A stretch of DNA of 28,779 nt from a virus, in the IMG/VR virus record IMGVR_UViG_3300042987_001591, positions 1 to 28,779 of that record; one strand, written 5' to 3'. Within the stretch, counting starts at the first letter, position 1, and the number at the start of each line of letters is the position of its first letter. This document shows positions 3,226-12,270 of this stretch, in pieces. The translations under genes and the position numbers were made by a program. Under the pieces are notes generated by a model. The model was not told where the DNA came from and did no database searches. It was given only the letters and a program-made list of their open reading frames with translations.

Positions 3226-3737
3226 CAGTCCATCCTAGATTCGGCTCGGGCGTTGATACCATTTTCACGAAGAACAGCAGCAAATGCTCTAGCATAGGCT
3301 TCCTTGCGGGCCATAGATTGACCATAGCCTCTAACCCAAACCTCAAGGCCACCGTAATAACCCTTGTGAGATTGGACATCCTCACGCTTCTTCAAGAAGT
3401 TAGCGAAAGCAGAATTCGCAGGCTTAATGGTAATCCAGGCGAAACCACAAACACCATCCATAACCGGCGGATACTCCTTGATGATTTCCGAAGTAGTATC
3501 CCAAGGATTCTCGTGCTGAACAACGATCATCGGCTCCGGAACGCAAATCTCAGCTGCCTTCCGACCCTTAGCATCAGCAAGAGCAAGAATCTCTTCAAAA
3601 TGCTTCATACGCTCAGCTTTTTCCTTTCCCTGCTCGTCAAGCATAGCCTTGAACGCAATACGAGCTTCCTCGCGATGGATAAGGCAATACTTAGACTTCC
3701 CAACAGTCTCTTGATCGCAACGCTTACAAATGGCCAT
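3225..3737 (-). CDS. Protein with N-terminal zinc-knuckle-like motif (unknown)
   Basis: A 170-aa protein. The N-terminus MAICKRCDQETVGKSKYCLIH gives a CxxC-x13-CxxH metal-site pattern at residues 4-21, followed by a charged helix (EEARIAFKAMLDEQGKEKAER). The C-terminal half has GFAWITIKPANSAFANFLKK, GGLEVWVRGYGQSMARKEAYARAFA, a mixed alpha/beta domain. Proteins with this layout are common in actinophages without known role. Both ends overlap neighbours by one base (TGATG), so it is firmly within the operon. Confidence 0.85.
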   Translation of the reverse strand: MAICKRCDQETVGKSKYCLIHREEARIAFKAMLDEQGKEKAERMKHFEEILALADAKGRKAAEICVPEPMIVVQHENPWDTTSEIIKEYPPVMDGVCGFAWITIKPANSAFANFLKKREDVQSHKGYYGGLEVWVRGYGQSMARKEAYARAFAAVLRENGINARAESRMD

Positions 3738-4592: not shown

Positions 4593-4754
4593 TTAGCCGG
4601 AGATAATACTTTCGATATAAGCATCAAGCATCTCAATAGCATCAGCGGCTTGACGAAGTTTAACTTGGATATCAGAAAGCGACTGACTCGAAATCGAATC
4701 AGCCGCTTCACGGAGTGAAGAAATCAATTGTTCAATATCTTGATGATTAGCCAT
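4593..4754 (-). CDS. 53-aa helical protein
   Basis: ATG 4754 is preceded by GGAG with a 7-nt spacer, and the frame upstream of it is implausible as protein. The 53 residues (MANHQDIEQLISSLREAADS...) are almost wholly helical with regular hydrophobic spacing and Ala/Asp/Ile repeats, suggesting a short coiled coil or helical hairpin. Function unknown. Confidence 0.75.
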   Translation of the reverse strand: MANHQDIEQLISSLREAADSISSQSLSDIQVKLRQAADAIEMLDAYIESIISG

Positions 4755-4767
4755 ACATAATCTCCAA

Positions 4768-4965
4768 TCAAATAGCGGGCTTGAGAGCTTCAGGAATAAC
4801 ACGATGATAGAGTGCCATCAGATCCGCAATCTCTTGATTATTGTGAGGACCAACATAACCTTTTTCCTCAATAATAACTTGAATAGCACTATCAATAAGT
4901 GCTTCGATCTTCATAAGATCAGAGATTTTCATAGAAATCTTTACATTCTCGTAATCAAATTCCAT
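4768..4965 (-). CDS. 65-aa hypothetical protein
   Basis: In-frame starts exist at ATG 4989, 4977 and 4965. Only 4965 has a well-spaced ribosome site (GGAG, 6-nt spacer), so I prefer it (MEFDYENVKISMKISDLMK). Using 4989 would give 73 aa and an 11-nt overlap with the upstream gene. The protein begins with a probable beta strand and continues as helices. No motif recognised. Confidence 0.7.
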   Translation of the reverse strand: MEFDYENVKISMKISDLMKIEALIDSAIQVIIEEKGYVGPHNNQEIADLMALYHRVIPEALKPAI

Positions 4966-4978
4966 TGGTTGCTCCATT

Positions 4979-5473
4979 CTATTCGTCATCCATTACAATA
5001 TCTGAAAGGATTTCGTCTTCCTCAATAGAACCGTCAATAAGTTCATCATCATTATGATTAGCAAGATGAATCTTGTAGCCGTTGTTGAGGATAGCGTAAA
5101 CCCCAAGGTCATCATAACCCTTACCGACAACAGTACCAACATACTCACCATTACGGTAAATAGTGCTACCGGAATCGTAACCTTTAGGCTTAGGCCGCTT
5201 CTCAAGGGTAGAAGCTACATAAATGTCATTGATTCGTGAAGTACGAATAACACTATCAAGATGACGAACACGCTTAGCGAACTTAGTTTGCTCAACATAA
5301 GCCTTACGTCCATCCTCAAGAATAAACACAGCCTTGTAATGCCCGTACCCATTCATAACATAGGTCGTAACATCAACGATCTTGCCGACAATAAAGCCGT
5401 GCTTATTACGCAGCATCTGACCAATACAGTGCTGATAATCTTCTACTTCATTCGAAATGATAACTTCAGACAT
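4979..5473 (-). CDS. Hypothetical protein, first gene of the leftmost operon
   Basis: A 164-aa protein from ATG 5473 with AAGGAATAATAA before it. It has repeated short beta-rich segments: GQMLRNKHGFIVGKIVDVTTYVMNG in the N-terminal half and GSTIYRNGEYVGTVVGKGYDD in the C-terminal half, each G-x(n)-VGxxVxKxYD/T like. This suggests a duplicated SH3- or KOW-like barrel, but that is inference. The C-terminus is strongly acidic. It is the first gene after the promoter at 5518-5546. Confidence 0.8.
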   Translation of the reverse strand: MSEVIISNEVEDYQHCIGQMLRNKHGFIVGKIVDVTTYVMNGYGHYKAVFILEDGRKAYVEQTKFAKRVRHLDSVIRTSRINDIYVASTLEKRPKPKGYDSGSTIYRNGEYVGTVVGKGYDDLGVYAILNNGYKIHLANHNDDELIDGSIEEDEILSDIVMDDE

Positions 5474-5517
5474 TTATTATTCCTTATTTCGGGGACATTA
5501 GTGGCGGGAACGGGTCT

Positions 5518-5546
5518 ATTATTACACGCGGCAAAGAGGTTGTCAA
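5518..5546 (-). promoter_or_regulatory. Promoter A, sigma-70 type, for the leftmost operon
   Basis: On the minus strand the -35 box TTGACA (5541-5546) is followed by a 17-nt spacer and AATAAT (5518-5523), preceded by TGT, a possible extended -10. It lies 45 nt upstream of ATG 5473. The block from 5540 to 5558, including the -35 box and an AAAAGAAATCCC upstream stretch, is identical to promoter B. Confidence 0.8.
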
Positions 5547-5558
5547 GGGATTTCTTTT
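5540..5558 (-). repeat. 19-bp promoter-associated repeat, copy 1
   Basis: Minus strand AAAAGAAATCCCTTGACAA, found again at 10496-10514. Flanking similarity extends upstream (CCAC-x-T-x) and a few bases downstream (x-CTC-x-TT). The identical part covers the -35 hexamer and the region where an UP element or activator site would lie. Confidence 0.85.
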
Positions 5559-5632
5559 TACGTGGCGAAATGGATTGCCGGCAGATGTCGCAACCAAATC
5601 AGCGATCAAATGCCGAGCTTGTTATGGCCGAT

Positions 5633-5651
5633 AAATGTGACAAGCACATTT
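5633..5651. repeat. Inverted repeat AAATGTG-N5-CACATTT
   Basis: A perfect 7-bp inverted repeat with a 5-nt spacer lies between the end of the HTH gene (5686) and promoter A. No T-tract follows on either strand, so a terminator is unlikely. Its shape fits an operator or a small RNA hairpin. The rest of 5474-5685 holds promoter A and no gene I can support. Confidence 0.45.
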
Positions 5652-5685
5652 GGATCTAATATCTCTTTCATCTGGAATATATACT

Positions 5686-5904
5686 TCAGTCGTTCTTCGT
5701 CTTGTTACGCTTATCCAGGTTGACCAAAGTAGGTCTAACAATATACCCATTGTCAATGGCAATTTGCGATACGCGAGCCCGAGTCAAACCAACCTGACGC
5801 CCGATCTCAGCATAAGAAAGACCACTGTCAACCATTTTCAAAATTAACTCATTACGCTGCTGTCTAGGGTTCATCTTAGATGCATCAATAAATTCATCAT
5901 TCAT
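5686..5904 (-). CDS. Small helix-turn-helix DNA-binding protein
   Basis: A 72-aa protein. Residues about 20-50 (LILKMVDSGLSYAEIGRQVG, then LTRARVSQIAIDNG) form a clear HTH of the sigma-region-4/resolvase kind, with SYAEIGRQ as first helix, G-L as turn and RARVSQIA as recognition helix. The basic C-terminus (RPTLVNLDKRNKTKND) could add DNA contacts. It overlaps the upstream gene by 8 nt. It is the last gene of its operon and lies next to promoter A, so it could regulate the two related promoters; that is inference. Confidence 0.8.
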   Translation of the reverse strand: MNDEFIDASKMNPRQQRNELILKMVDSGLSYAEIGRQVGLTRARVSQIAIDNGYIVRPTLVNLDKRNKTKND

Positions 5905-6199
5905 TTTCTAATTTCTCCTCGGTAACTTCATGATATTTTCTCCCATGTTCTTCATCATTTTGATCAAGTTTTCTAAACTTACTGCCAGATGGATTTGCAA
6001 AATATTCGTTCAGTGGACCCACCTCTGTTAGGTGTGCTCCATATTCAAAAACTCTGACAAACCAATGACTCACTGATGTATTGTATTCTTTTTTTACCTG
6101 CTCTTTTGCAATGTTTGCAGCTTCTTCTGGCGTTGCGGCCTCAGGAACTACAATCGGCAGTCTATATTCTACTACCCAATAACTCTTATCGTCAGACAT
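5897..6199 (-). CDS. Hypothetical actinophage-type protein (YWVVEYR family)
   Basis: A 100-aa protein starting MSDDKSYWVVEYRLP. It has an ATPEEAANIAKEQVKKEY helix, HWFVRVFEYG, and VGPLNEYFANPSGSKFRKL. I recall actinophage proteins with this order (YWVVEYRxPVVV, TPEEAA, WFARVFEY, GP-EYFxNPxG), all of unknown function. The start ATG 6199 follows the stop of the membrane peptide by 6 nt, and GAGG lies within that gene's end. Confidence 0.8.
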   Translation of the reverse strand: MSDDKSYWVVEYRLPIVVPEAATPEEAANIAKEQVKKEYNTSVSHWFVRVFEYGAHLTEVGPLNEYFANPSGSKFRKLDQNDEEHGRKYHEVTEEKLENE

Positions 6200-6205
6200 A
6201 TAACC

Positions 6206-6331
6206 TCAAATTGCGAATAATAATAAAATGATCAATGGTAATAAGAAGATGCCAATACTAATTAATATTACACCTAATATGATAATAACAATAAAACCAA
6301 TAACATACTGTACAACCTCAACCCAATTCAA
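6206..6331 (-). CDS. 41-aa single-span or hairpin membrane peptide
   Basis: A short gene starting at TTG 6331 with GAGG 8 nt upstream, 10 nt after the ATPase stop. The peptide begins MNWVEVVQYVIGFIV and is almost entirely Ile, Leu, Val, Gly and Phe to its end (LLPLIILLLFAI). That is one long or two short membrane helices with a central Gly/Pro break. Only the first ten residues are polar. It fills the gap between the ATPase and the next gene exactly. Membrane localisation is near certain if translated; holin-like, inhibitor or anchor roles are all possible. Confidence 0.7.
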   Translation of the reverse strand: MNWVEVVQYVIGFIVIIILGVILISIGIFLLPLIILLLFAI

Positions 6332-6341
6332 GTTAGCAACC

Positions 6342-7781
6342 TCAATTAGTAGGTAAATTTAACTCCGCCAGCATCAACATTAGTTTAGCACACCGATCAT
6401 CGGCCAAGTCACGAAATTCCCGTTCTTCATCCATTAGACCACTTTCATAATGATCGATTTCATGGAGCAGAACAGAAATCGTGCGCTCGATACCATCTTT
6501 CAATACATCCACATTAATCAAGATGGACTCTGAGCCGGGGCGATAAACACCAAGAATACTTTCTTGCATATCACGTGGGCGAAATGCAGCATATTCAATG
6601 TCTTTTGGAGCATTAGAAAACATACCAATAATATTTAAACTATTTTCAAGTGTAGCATTGAGATGATTTGGAAGTGAATCAATGATATCAAATTCAGCCC
6701 TATCACCAAGAATCTTTTCAACGTGCAACTGAGCCATCGGCGTTGAACGCATAATAAGCCTGTAAAGCAAAGGACTGCGGATCGTAGCAAACGTATAACT
6801 ACGAAGCTGAAGTTGTACCTTTACTTCATTGGCCGCGTGACCCTCAATACCATAGCAGAGAGGAACACAGTTATCTCCATTTTGATCAATCCAAGCTTGA
6901 CCCCAAGCATCATTTACTTGACCAAAATCAGCTGCGCTAGATGGAATCTCTTCAAGTTCATAGATTCCATCACGACCCTTATCCAAATTAAGGATAGTGG
7001 TACACATATCAACGGAATTGACACCGCCTAGGCCGATGCCAATAACAGAGTTAAGTTGATAGATGTGAGCAAGCTTACGCTCTTCATTTAGACGAAATCC
7101 AGTACACTGATAGTCAAAAAGCGACTCAGGCTCATCGTCACCCATATCACCAACCCAAATACCACCCTTGCCGTACAACTTACCACCAGCGCTGCTGCCA
7201 CCCATAAGCTGAGTACGAAACAGCGAGATTTCGCCCTGATACGAATCAATCTTGACATCAGGGATACTATTGAACTTAAAGTAAGTGCTGTGATTCTCAA
7301 AGATTTCGAGAATCTCATCACTAGCCGTCAGGTAGATATCAAAGAAACCCTCGACATACTCAACTTCATCCACGAGATCAATCGTATACTCAGCATCGAA
7401 CTCAAGGTGAGCATCAAGGATATTAGCATATGCTTCACGGTAAATCTGAAATACTGTATCCCAAGAAAGAACGCCGGCATCGAGAGAAAAAGATGAAGCG
7501 ACATCCTCTACATTACCATCAAGATCAGTATAACGATAGTAGACGATATCATAACCGTCAATATTCTTCGTAATATACTCAAGCCGATACATTCCCCGAT
7601 CATCGGCTCCAAGGCAAATCCATTCCCAGCCCTCACGAAGTGCAGAAATAGGAGCTAGTTTAGCACCAGATCCAAACTGACCAATAGTATTCTCATCATC
7701 TCGCTTAGATGAGATACCCATCTTCTCTAGACGAATACGCGGAACATTATCTGCACGATTCCTAAACCTCACGTATTTCAC
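6342..7781 (-). CDS. Bergerat-fold (GHKL-like) ATPase with C-terminal HExxH motif
   Basis: About 479 aa. The start is GTG 7781, set by AGGAGG 6-7 nt upstream; a TTG at 7823 is in frame but lies inside the upstream gene and lacks this site. Residues 31-51 (NTIGQFGSGAKLAPISALREG) match the glycine-rich lid motif of HSP90/MutL-type ATPases (GQFGxG). I recall a phage family carrying IGxFGxGLKxAxxxLxRxG without a classic N-box. The middle is unassigned. The C-terminus has LLHEIDHYESGLMDEE (HEIDH at 440-444), followed by REFRDLADDR, a zincin-like HExxH signature with acidic candidates for a third ligand. The combination suggests an ATP-dependent regulator or peptidase. Catalysis is untested. Confidence 0.8.
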   Translation of the reverse strand: MKYVRFRNRADNVPRIRLEKMGISSKRDDENTIGQFGSGAKLAPISALREGWEWICLGADDRGMYRLEYITKNIDGYDIVYYRYTDLDGNVEDVASSFSLDAGVLSWDTVFQIYREAYANILDAHLEFDAEYTIDLVDEVEYVEGFFDIYLTASDEILEIFENHSTYFKFNSIPDVKIDSYQGEISLFRTQLMGGSSAGGKLYGKGGIWVGDMGDDEPESLFDYQCTGFRLNEERKLAHIYQLNSVIGIGLGGVNSVDMCTTILNLDKGRDGIYELEEIPSSAADFGQVNDAWGQAWIDQNGDNCVPLCYGIEGHAANEVKVQLQLRSYTFATIRSPLLYRLIMRSTPMAQLHVEKILGDRAEFDIIDSLPNHLNATLENSLNIIGMFSNAPKDIEYAAFRPRDMQESILGVYRPGSESILINVDVLKDGIERTISVLLHEIDHYESGLMDEEREFRDLADDRCAKLMLMLAELNLPTN

Positions 7782-10782: not shown

Positions 10783-11373
10783 TCACAGATTCCAAGGTGA
10801 GCGACCGCTACCCTGATACAAAATCCAAGCGGCTCGAATATTGCATTCTGGATTAGTCCAGTCCGTTGAGCCACACGCAGCTATAAATAAGCCTGAGTGC
10901 ATCGGCATCATCATCTGGAATAAACCAGAAGCTCCTGAGGCATTTCTTGCCGTGGGAATACACCTTGATTCCCGGTAAGCAATGCCGATAGCCCACTCTG
11001 CATCTTTTTGCCAAATACTACGAATCAAATCTGCGTATTGGCAGGGGCTACCACCTTGAGGCTGTTGAGCAACATATGTCGTAGGTGTTGCTGCTCTTTG
11101 TCTTGCCAGCGTTTCCGACCGCCTGCTTTCTTCGGCCTGCTGTGCGGCAATTCTATTCTTCTCAACTTGTTGATTCCAGAGAACCACAGCCTCTTGGTGC
11201 TCTCGGAATTTTATTCTCTTTTCTGCCCGAATTTGGTTGAATACCTTTGTGTCGTCAACCACGATACTTTCTCTGGAGGCTTTCGGTGAAGCCTCCGTAT
11301 TACTATGTTTATCTGTTATACCGCCAGCGGCGGCCGTTATAAGTAAAATTAAACTACATAACACTACTCTCAT
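10783..11373 (-). CDS. Exported lysozyme-like (SLT/transglycosylase-fold) protein
   Basis: A 196-aa protein from ATG 11373 with AAGGAG upstream. Residues 1-18 (MRVVLCSLILLITAAAGG) form a signal peptide or lipid-free anchor. Residues about 35-95 are a charged, Gln/Arg-rich helix. The C-terminal domain has WAIGIAYRESRCIPTARNAS, then GASGLFQMMMPMHSG and a final GSGRSPW, the layout of lysozyme/SLT domains, with E of YRESR as the likely catalytic acid. It probably cuts peptidoglycan. The export signal fits a role in lysis, or in wall entry if virion-bound. It is a stand-alone gene beyond a terminator. Confidence 0.85.
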   Translation of the reverse strand: MRVVLCSLILLITAAAGGITDKHSNTEASPKASRESIVVDDTKVFNQIRAEKRIKFREHQEAVVLWNQQVEKNRIAAQQAEESRRSETLARQRAATPTTYVAQQPQGGSPCQYADLIRSIWQKDAEWAIGIAYRESRCIPTARNASGASGLFQMMMPMHSGLFIAACGSTDWTNPECNIRAAWILYQGSGRSPWNL

Positions 11374-11937: not shown

Positions 11938-12270
11938 CTACTTTGTCGCCGCCATATCGCGACTATCTTCGAGATATCTAACTGCGGTGGAATTCTTCGG
12001 CTTTCCGACAAGGAAATAGACCCCACCCCAAAGGCCAGTTTCTGAAGCATTAATTGCATGTTCATAACAATCAGAACATACTTCACAAGATTCGCAAAAT
12101 TTTGCAATTTCACGCCTCGCCGCTGGCGTGGCTCTCTCGAAGTATTCAAAAAATAGAGATGTAGATTTACTTTGCTGTCTACACTTAGCTTGCGACATCC
12201 ACTTGCTTTGTTCTAAAACGTACTCAGCTTTTCTTCTCTCTGCGATAATATGTGCTTTAGTTCTGGGCAT
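11938..12270 (-). CDS. whiB: WhiB-like iron-sulfur transcriptional regulator
   Basis: A 110-aa protein from ATG 12270, with GGAGG 8 nt upstream. Four cysteines have WhiB order: C30, C59, C62, C68 (C-x28-C-x2-C-x5-C), with an additional C65 in the middle of the last interval. GLWGG at 79-83 matches the WhiB turn, usually G[VI]WGG. A basic segment (GKPKNSTAVRY) follows and would contact DNA. WhiB proteins bind a [4Fe-4S] cluster and act with the host primary sigma factor. Phage versions may redirect or silence host genes. The family strongly suggests an actinobacterial host. Confidence 0.9.
   Translation of the reverse strand: MPRTKAHIIAERRKAEYVLEQSKWMSQAKCRQQSKSTSLFFEYFERATPAARREIAKFCESCEVCSDCYEHAINASETGLWGGVYFLVGKPKNSTAVRYLEDSRDMAATK

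Follow-up and report, generated by a model that had tools for sequence, protein, structure and literature searches.

In the canonical chain of a GHKL (Bergerat-fold) ATPase the N box comes first, followed by the G1 box and then the lid, and we know of no described natural circular permutation of the fold of the HSP90, gyrase and MutL type. T4 rIIA, a phage protein of the membrane-protection or counter-defence type, has a GHKL domain in this canonical order (N box at 45, G1 box DFGPG at 81, lid at 116) within a chain of 725 aa. T4 rIIAB gives protection against RexAB (PMC8594841), and rIIA orthologues carry GHKL domains with variable C-termini, representing poorly understood counter-defence systems (PMC7824862).

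The window analysed here is a 28,779-nucleotide stretch of viral DNA (IMG/VR record IMGVR_UViG_3300042987_001591, positions 1 to 28,779). It encodes a 479-aa protein (6342-7781, minus strand; GTG start, GAGGAGG upstream) predicted to join a permuted Bergerat-fold ATPase, a transducer and a zincin-like domain. Translation of 7781-6342 confirmed that IGQFGSGAK (residues 33-41) and HEIDH (residues 440-444) occur in one protein, as a preliminary description had reported, and the 41-aa hydrophobic gene with its own GAGG and the HTH gene two genes beyond it were found where that description had placed them. The former is a 41-codon ORF with a TTG start (6206-6331, minus strand), 10 nt from the stop of the 479-aa gene, and encodes a single-TM peptide with a maximum 19-residue hydropathy of 3.35. 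It is followed on the same strand by a conserved partner of 100 aa, gene 3 (5897-6199), and by the small HTH gene (5686-5904; phrog_686, E 2.9e-6), which overlaps the end of gene 3.

No match was obtained when GenBank phages (50,697 records, E 1e-5) were searched directly with the protein, and a single-sequence scan of IMG/VR gave no relative; the family was found only at a loose threshold (E 10) and with an alignment query. The loose-threshold matches (21-32% identity) were to Pseudomonas YuA-like phages, Bordetella FP1 and Pseudomonas AH02, with further matches to Synechococcus Yong-M4-211 and an uncultured megaphage. Depositors' labels for these proteins cover single halves ('HATPase', 'ATP-binding protein', 'hydrolase, metallopeptidase'), and PHROGs places the named relatives in phrog_8203, which has no assigned function. 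The phrog_8203 profile matched residues 1-150 (E 7.6e-11), the rest of the protein aligning with that family in the multiple alignment only. An alignment-based IMG/VR scan returned 113 relatives, of which 80 were kept, comprising a near clade of full-length homologues with 30-35% identity and distant relatives with approximately 20%. Most near-clade proteins (L013, L016, L017, L020 and similar) are approximately 550 aa long, with an extra C-terminal segment of approximately 80 aa after the zincin that the window protein does not have. Neither the window protein nor gene 3 matched a PADLOC profile of known anti-phage defence proteins.

Chain order of the ATPase domain

The lid, or G2 box, was read from the translation as IGQFGSGAK (7659-7685, minus strand) and has the GxxGxG pattern of GHKL ATPases. 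An N box with the E-x3-N-x2-D pattern, REAYANILD (residues 115-123, with E116, N120 and D123; 7413-7439, minus strand), was missed in the preliminary description and follows the lid, an order that is not the canonical one. RExxxNxxD lies after the lid in 83/83 relatives and before it in 0/83; no N box was found upstream of the lid in these 83 sequences, even when reading from the upstream stop codon, and no DxGxG was found there. Ten positions are invariant in 61 sequences (G34, G37, G39, K41, W107, R115, E116, N120, D123 and R235). By analogy to HSP90 we take E116 to be the general base and N120 a Mg ligand, and R235, which lies in the transducer motif YQCTGFRLNEERKL (Y224, E233, R235; 7071-7112, minus strand), is a candidate ATP-sensing Arg by comparison with the HSP90 middle domain; assignment of this motif to the transducer is based on the invariance of R235 and a structural match to the N-terminal and middle (N-M) region of HSP90. 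Where the G1 box DxGxG should have its Asp, 60 of the 61 sequences carry Asn (Asn8); the canonical G1 Asp is absent, so that ATP binding is predicted rather than proven. The G1 box is degenerate too in the canonical-order family phrog_6077 (SRGG, SPGA).

phrog_6077 (Escherichia phage W70_78, Pseudomonas PAKlein3) has the same ATPase and transducer sequence blocks as the window protein but in the canonical N box-then-lid order, and the C-terminal zincin motif was not seen in it. Profile comparison of the two families gave a main match of 4-337 to 46-370 (E 3e-19) and a second, out-of-order match of 86-117 to 2-31 (E 2.6e-5), and hhalign against the phrog_6077 alignment gave 4-96 to 46-138 (E 2e-15) together with 86-117 to 2-31 (E 1.6e-7). 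When the canonical ATPase part of phrog_6077 was duplicated head to tail and used as a tandem template, a single match crossing the junction was obtained by hhalign (4-117 to 46-169, E 3e-20), with a score of 127.4 relative to 90.4 and 47.1 for the two separate matches; a reversed-profile control gave E ~0.4. Fusion of the out-of-order matches on the tandem template argues for a circularly permuted Bergerat fold, and the pattern is what a permutation opened at the hairpin that follows the N-box helix should give; the permutation is well supported by computation. Residues 1-155 would form the permuted ATP-binding domain, the chain beginning at the strand that normally bears the G1 box, passing the lid and then forming the N-box helix, and residues ~155-360 are predicted to include an HSP90/topoisomerase-type transducer. 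In agreement with the permutation, a sacsin-type GHKL model spans 23-85 of W70_78, taking in the N box and then the lid, but reaches only the lid region in the permuted proteins. Pfam and NCBIfam gave nothing above their cut-offs for the 479-aa protein, and the permuted order would explain why Pfam misses the ATPase domain.

An AlphaFold model of the 479-aa protein was generated from a 61-row alignment (pLDDT 89.5, pTM 0.75). Residues 1-271 (some matches extending to 360) aligned with HSP90, TRAP1, MORC2 and GyrB at Z 7-8 (VIA-align), scores that are not decisive alone. Sequential aligners cannot superpose a moved N-box helix; within these limits the model has a GHKL fold. Residue 1 of the model aligns to approximately residues 61-86 of cytosolic HSP90, MORC2 and GyrB, past their N box, a placement that is consistent with the permutation and alone is no proof of it. 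The window protein shares the fold, lid motif and N-box residues with HSP90, MORC2 and GyrB but differs from them in being permuted, in having Asn for the G1 Asp and in the fused C-terminal zincin. As a direct homologue T4 rIIA was rejected, with only short, weak matches found: the profile match was weak (E 0.0074), as were Foldseek matches of the model to phage rIIA models, and the protein has neither the canonical N-terminal GHKL order nor the full-length similarity of an rIIA orthologue.

The zincin-like domain and its metal site

The metal-site motif HEIDHYESGLMD (H440, E441, H444 and D451; 6429-6464, minus strand) was assigned from sequence and from matches to Wss1 and minigluzincins. In the AlphaFold model HEIDH lies within a helix (431-447) that follows a strand (419-423), the arrangement of a zincin, in which HExxH is in the helix after the edge strand. 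Residues 366-474, predicted to be a Wss1/minigluzincin-like zincin domain, matched Wss1 (WLM/SprT-like) with Z 9.3 over 101 residues at 2.8 A, and minigluzincins with Z 7.5-8.3 (selecase 8.3, jannalysin 8.0; abylysin was also matched; VIA-align). By sequence, too, the top PDB match of this region is Wss1 (E 0.03). The window protein shares with Wss1 and the minigluzincins this fold, the HExxH and the following turn, but near the candidate third-ligand position it has Asp where they have His, and it is fused to an ATPase. The structure prediction proposed in the preliminary description thus returned an HSP90/MORC/GyrB-like ATPase with transducer followed by a Wss1/minigluzincin-like zincin; it upheld both domain calls made there. 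The outcome that would have spoken against them, a HEIDH buried in a non-zincin fold or without a third ligand, was not obtained, the region matching zincin structures and having a conserved Asp in a possible third-ligand position.

H440 is present in 21/21 complete near-clade members, with Glu at this position in 37/39 other relatives, while E441, H444 and D451 are kept in both the HExxH and EExxH groups. D451, found in 58/60 sequences, is a candidate third metal ligand; D461, which does not vary within the near clade but mostly gives way to hydrophobic residues outside it, is a candidate third ligand for the HExxH clade only. In a tree built without the metal-motif columns, the HExxH sequences and one truncated sequence formed one clade (SH-aLRT 99), so that the His/Glu state needs one change on that tree. 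The invariance of H440, E441, H444, D451 and D461 in complete HExxH-clade members at approximately 30% identity points to selection on the site. With Glu as the first ligand in most of the wider relatives, the family cannot universally act by proteolysis at a standard zinc site. phrog_8203 (YuA gp29, M6 ORF071, AH02 gp26, Bordetella FP1) is homologous over the ATPase part, with the same lid-then-N-box order, the same transducer motif and a C-terminal ExxH...D motif at the same position, but has EExxH instead of HExxH and neither the downstream TM peptide nor gene 3. The replacement of the first zinc-binding His by Glu, with the E, H and D kept (L003, L009, L002, L069 and others), is an unusual metal-site variant, and the motif is lost in L077 and L100. 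In locus L005 the gene AN14_29 (2588-2953) encodes a 121-aa 'putative hydrolase, metallopeptidase' with a TM-like segment and without HExxH, a label that may have spread from the gene beside it.

The membrane peptide and gene 3

A small hydrophobic TM ORF, mostly of 37-58 aa, lies directly downstream (start -25 to +75 nt from the stop) of the ATPase gene in 30/31 near-clade loci, compared with 11/445 for the same position at other genes of the same loci (Fisher 3e-37; the loci are not independent, 20 being left after removal of 90%-identical copies), and in 0/50 EExxH relatives. A family-wide TM gene was therefore rejected; the TM protein of the YuA relatives is a different one of 121 aa that is encoded upstream. 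All near-clade loci (31/31) have gene 3, whereas none of the EExxH loci does. The one near-clade locus without a TM ORF directly downstream, L042, has it after gene 3. Two further loci came from a GTDB scan: in L108 the cassette is intact, and in L107, whose contig was assigned to an archaeon MAG but is possibly viral and mis-binned, it is re-ordered, with gene 3 (3379-3675) upstream and a 37-aa, only moderately hydrophobic TM-like ORF (4742-4855) directly before the ATPase gene (4873-6420). The cassette parts thus stay together despite re-ordering. Codon position 2 has the fewest substitutions in the TM ORF, the pattern that selection for hydrophobicity would produce.

The tight tie to a small membrane gene claimed in the preliminary description was therefore borne out within the HExxH clade, whose homologues do carry such a gene. 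The covariation with HExxH that it proposed to test is perfect but counts as one event rather than repeated covariation, as the two coincide on one branch only. HExxH-clade phages also have other conserved neighbours in common, so a conserved layout of the genome may account for part of the linkage between the TM peptide and gene 3. The HTH gene was rejected as part of the module: it is not conserved beside the relatives, no homologue being found in their loci. Gene 3 was dropped as a clue to function: its predicted fold (beta-beta-alpha-beta-beta-beta-alpha; AlphaFold pLDDT 79) gave no known-fold match, with no Foldseek hit at E <0.17 and a best VIA Z of 4.0.

Proposed role, alternatives and genomic setting

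The permuted order, the domain identities, the conserved catalytic positions and the conserved cassette are well supported by computation. We give roughly an even chance to the proposal that the permuted ATPase and zincin, with the TM peptide and gene 3, form a phage ATP-driven switch with an rIIA-like role. ATP binding would probably close a dimer through the lid and transducer, as in HSP90, MutL, GyrB and MORC, and closure would reposition the C-terminal domain, positioning or activating the zincin, which in the HExxH clade is probably an active zinc peptidase. The protein would act with the co-encoded single-TM peptide, serving as membrane anchor, substrate or regulator, and with gene 3, and would thus most likely do so at the inner side of the host membrane while the infection proceeds. 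Shielding of the infection from a membrane-linked host response is the leading guess for its rIIA-like role. ATP hydrolysis, dimerisation, proteolysis, membrane partnership and the biological role are what we infer here.

A DNA-directed reading has some support. For the C-terminal domain the top relative by structure and sequence is Wss1, a DNA-protein-crosslink protease; for the lid the top PDB match by sequence is MORC2; and EExxH-clade genes lie in replication and recombination regions (YuA primase/helicase; AH02 Gam-like and DNA-binding genes; also L119 and L124), which does not suggest a membrane role for that clade. The protein could then be an ATP-gated clamp of the MORC/MutL/topoisomerase kind whose Wss1/SprT-like protease clears proteins off DNA, the TM peptide being an unrelated neighbour; however, no DNA-binding domain was recognised in the protein and a small TM gene adjoins it almost constantly in the HExxH clade, and we consider this explanation unlikely. 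The EExxH state of most relatives and the loss of the motif in two of them show that the ATPase can persist where a standard zinc site is missing, and fit instead a non-proteolytic switch, in which the zincin fold would be a structural or metal-binding scaffold, the ATPase would work in an rIIA-like manner and HExxH would be a relic. rIIA orthologues likewise keep the GHKL domain while their C-termini are highly variable (PMC7824862). The invariance of all five metal-site residues across the divergent HExxH clade argues against a relic, and we regard this alternative as improbable.

It is highly unlikely that the locus is a lysis-timing module in which a holin- or antiholin-like TM peptide is regulated by the ATPase-zincin. 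A transglycosylase/endolysin-like gene is located 3 kb away (10783-11373) and one phrog_6077 member, that of PAKlein3, is labelled 'RIIA lysis inhibitor' in one record, but the peptide has one TM segment without the charged tail that holins usually carry, and the relatives keep it together with the ATPase gene. Returning to the proposed ATP-driven switch, its fullest form is rather doubtful: a permuted Bergerat ATPase widespread in phages, one branch of which would be a three-component, membrane-associated, ATP-gated metallopeptidase that disarms a membrane-linked host defence, a counter-defence role and real peptidase activity being the steps we infer.

The suggestion that this is an undescribed system stood in part: no paper on a permuted GHKL protein or a phage ATPase-zincin protein was found among the open-access papers searched, but the wider family is already in public phage genomes (phrog_8203, YuA gp29). 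Both domains are known, hence the protein is not categorically new, while its arrangement and permutation are new to the open-access literature searched. The permuted family is widespread, with the 113 IMG/VR loci coming from one scan, and its presence in well-studied Pseudomonas phages such as YuA and M6 means that a genetically tractable phage is available for testing it. As a counterpart to rIIA, whose counter-defence action is poorly understood, it has a recognisable enzyme-like C-terminal domain.

EExxH-type genes are also found on bacterial chromosome contigs (L119, 4697-7275; L124, 5974-9393) beside a phrog_1366 gene, which in L124 is Sak4-like and is also adjoined by a DNA polymerase exonuclease subunit; given their phage-type neighbours these loci are probably prophages, and the neighbours suggest a replication-module link for the EExxH clade. 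The window phage itself encodes a DNA polymerase, helicase, primase, UvsX, RuvC, a terminase-like gene and the transglycosylase, together with a WhiB-like regulator (11938-12270, minus strand; phrog_472, E 3e-12). Homologues of the regulator are present in 21 near-clade loci, which suggests actinobacterial hosts for these low-GC phages.
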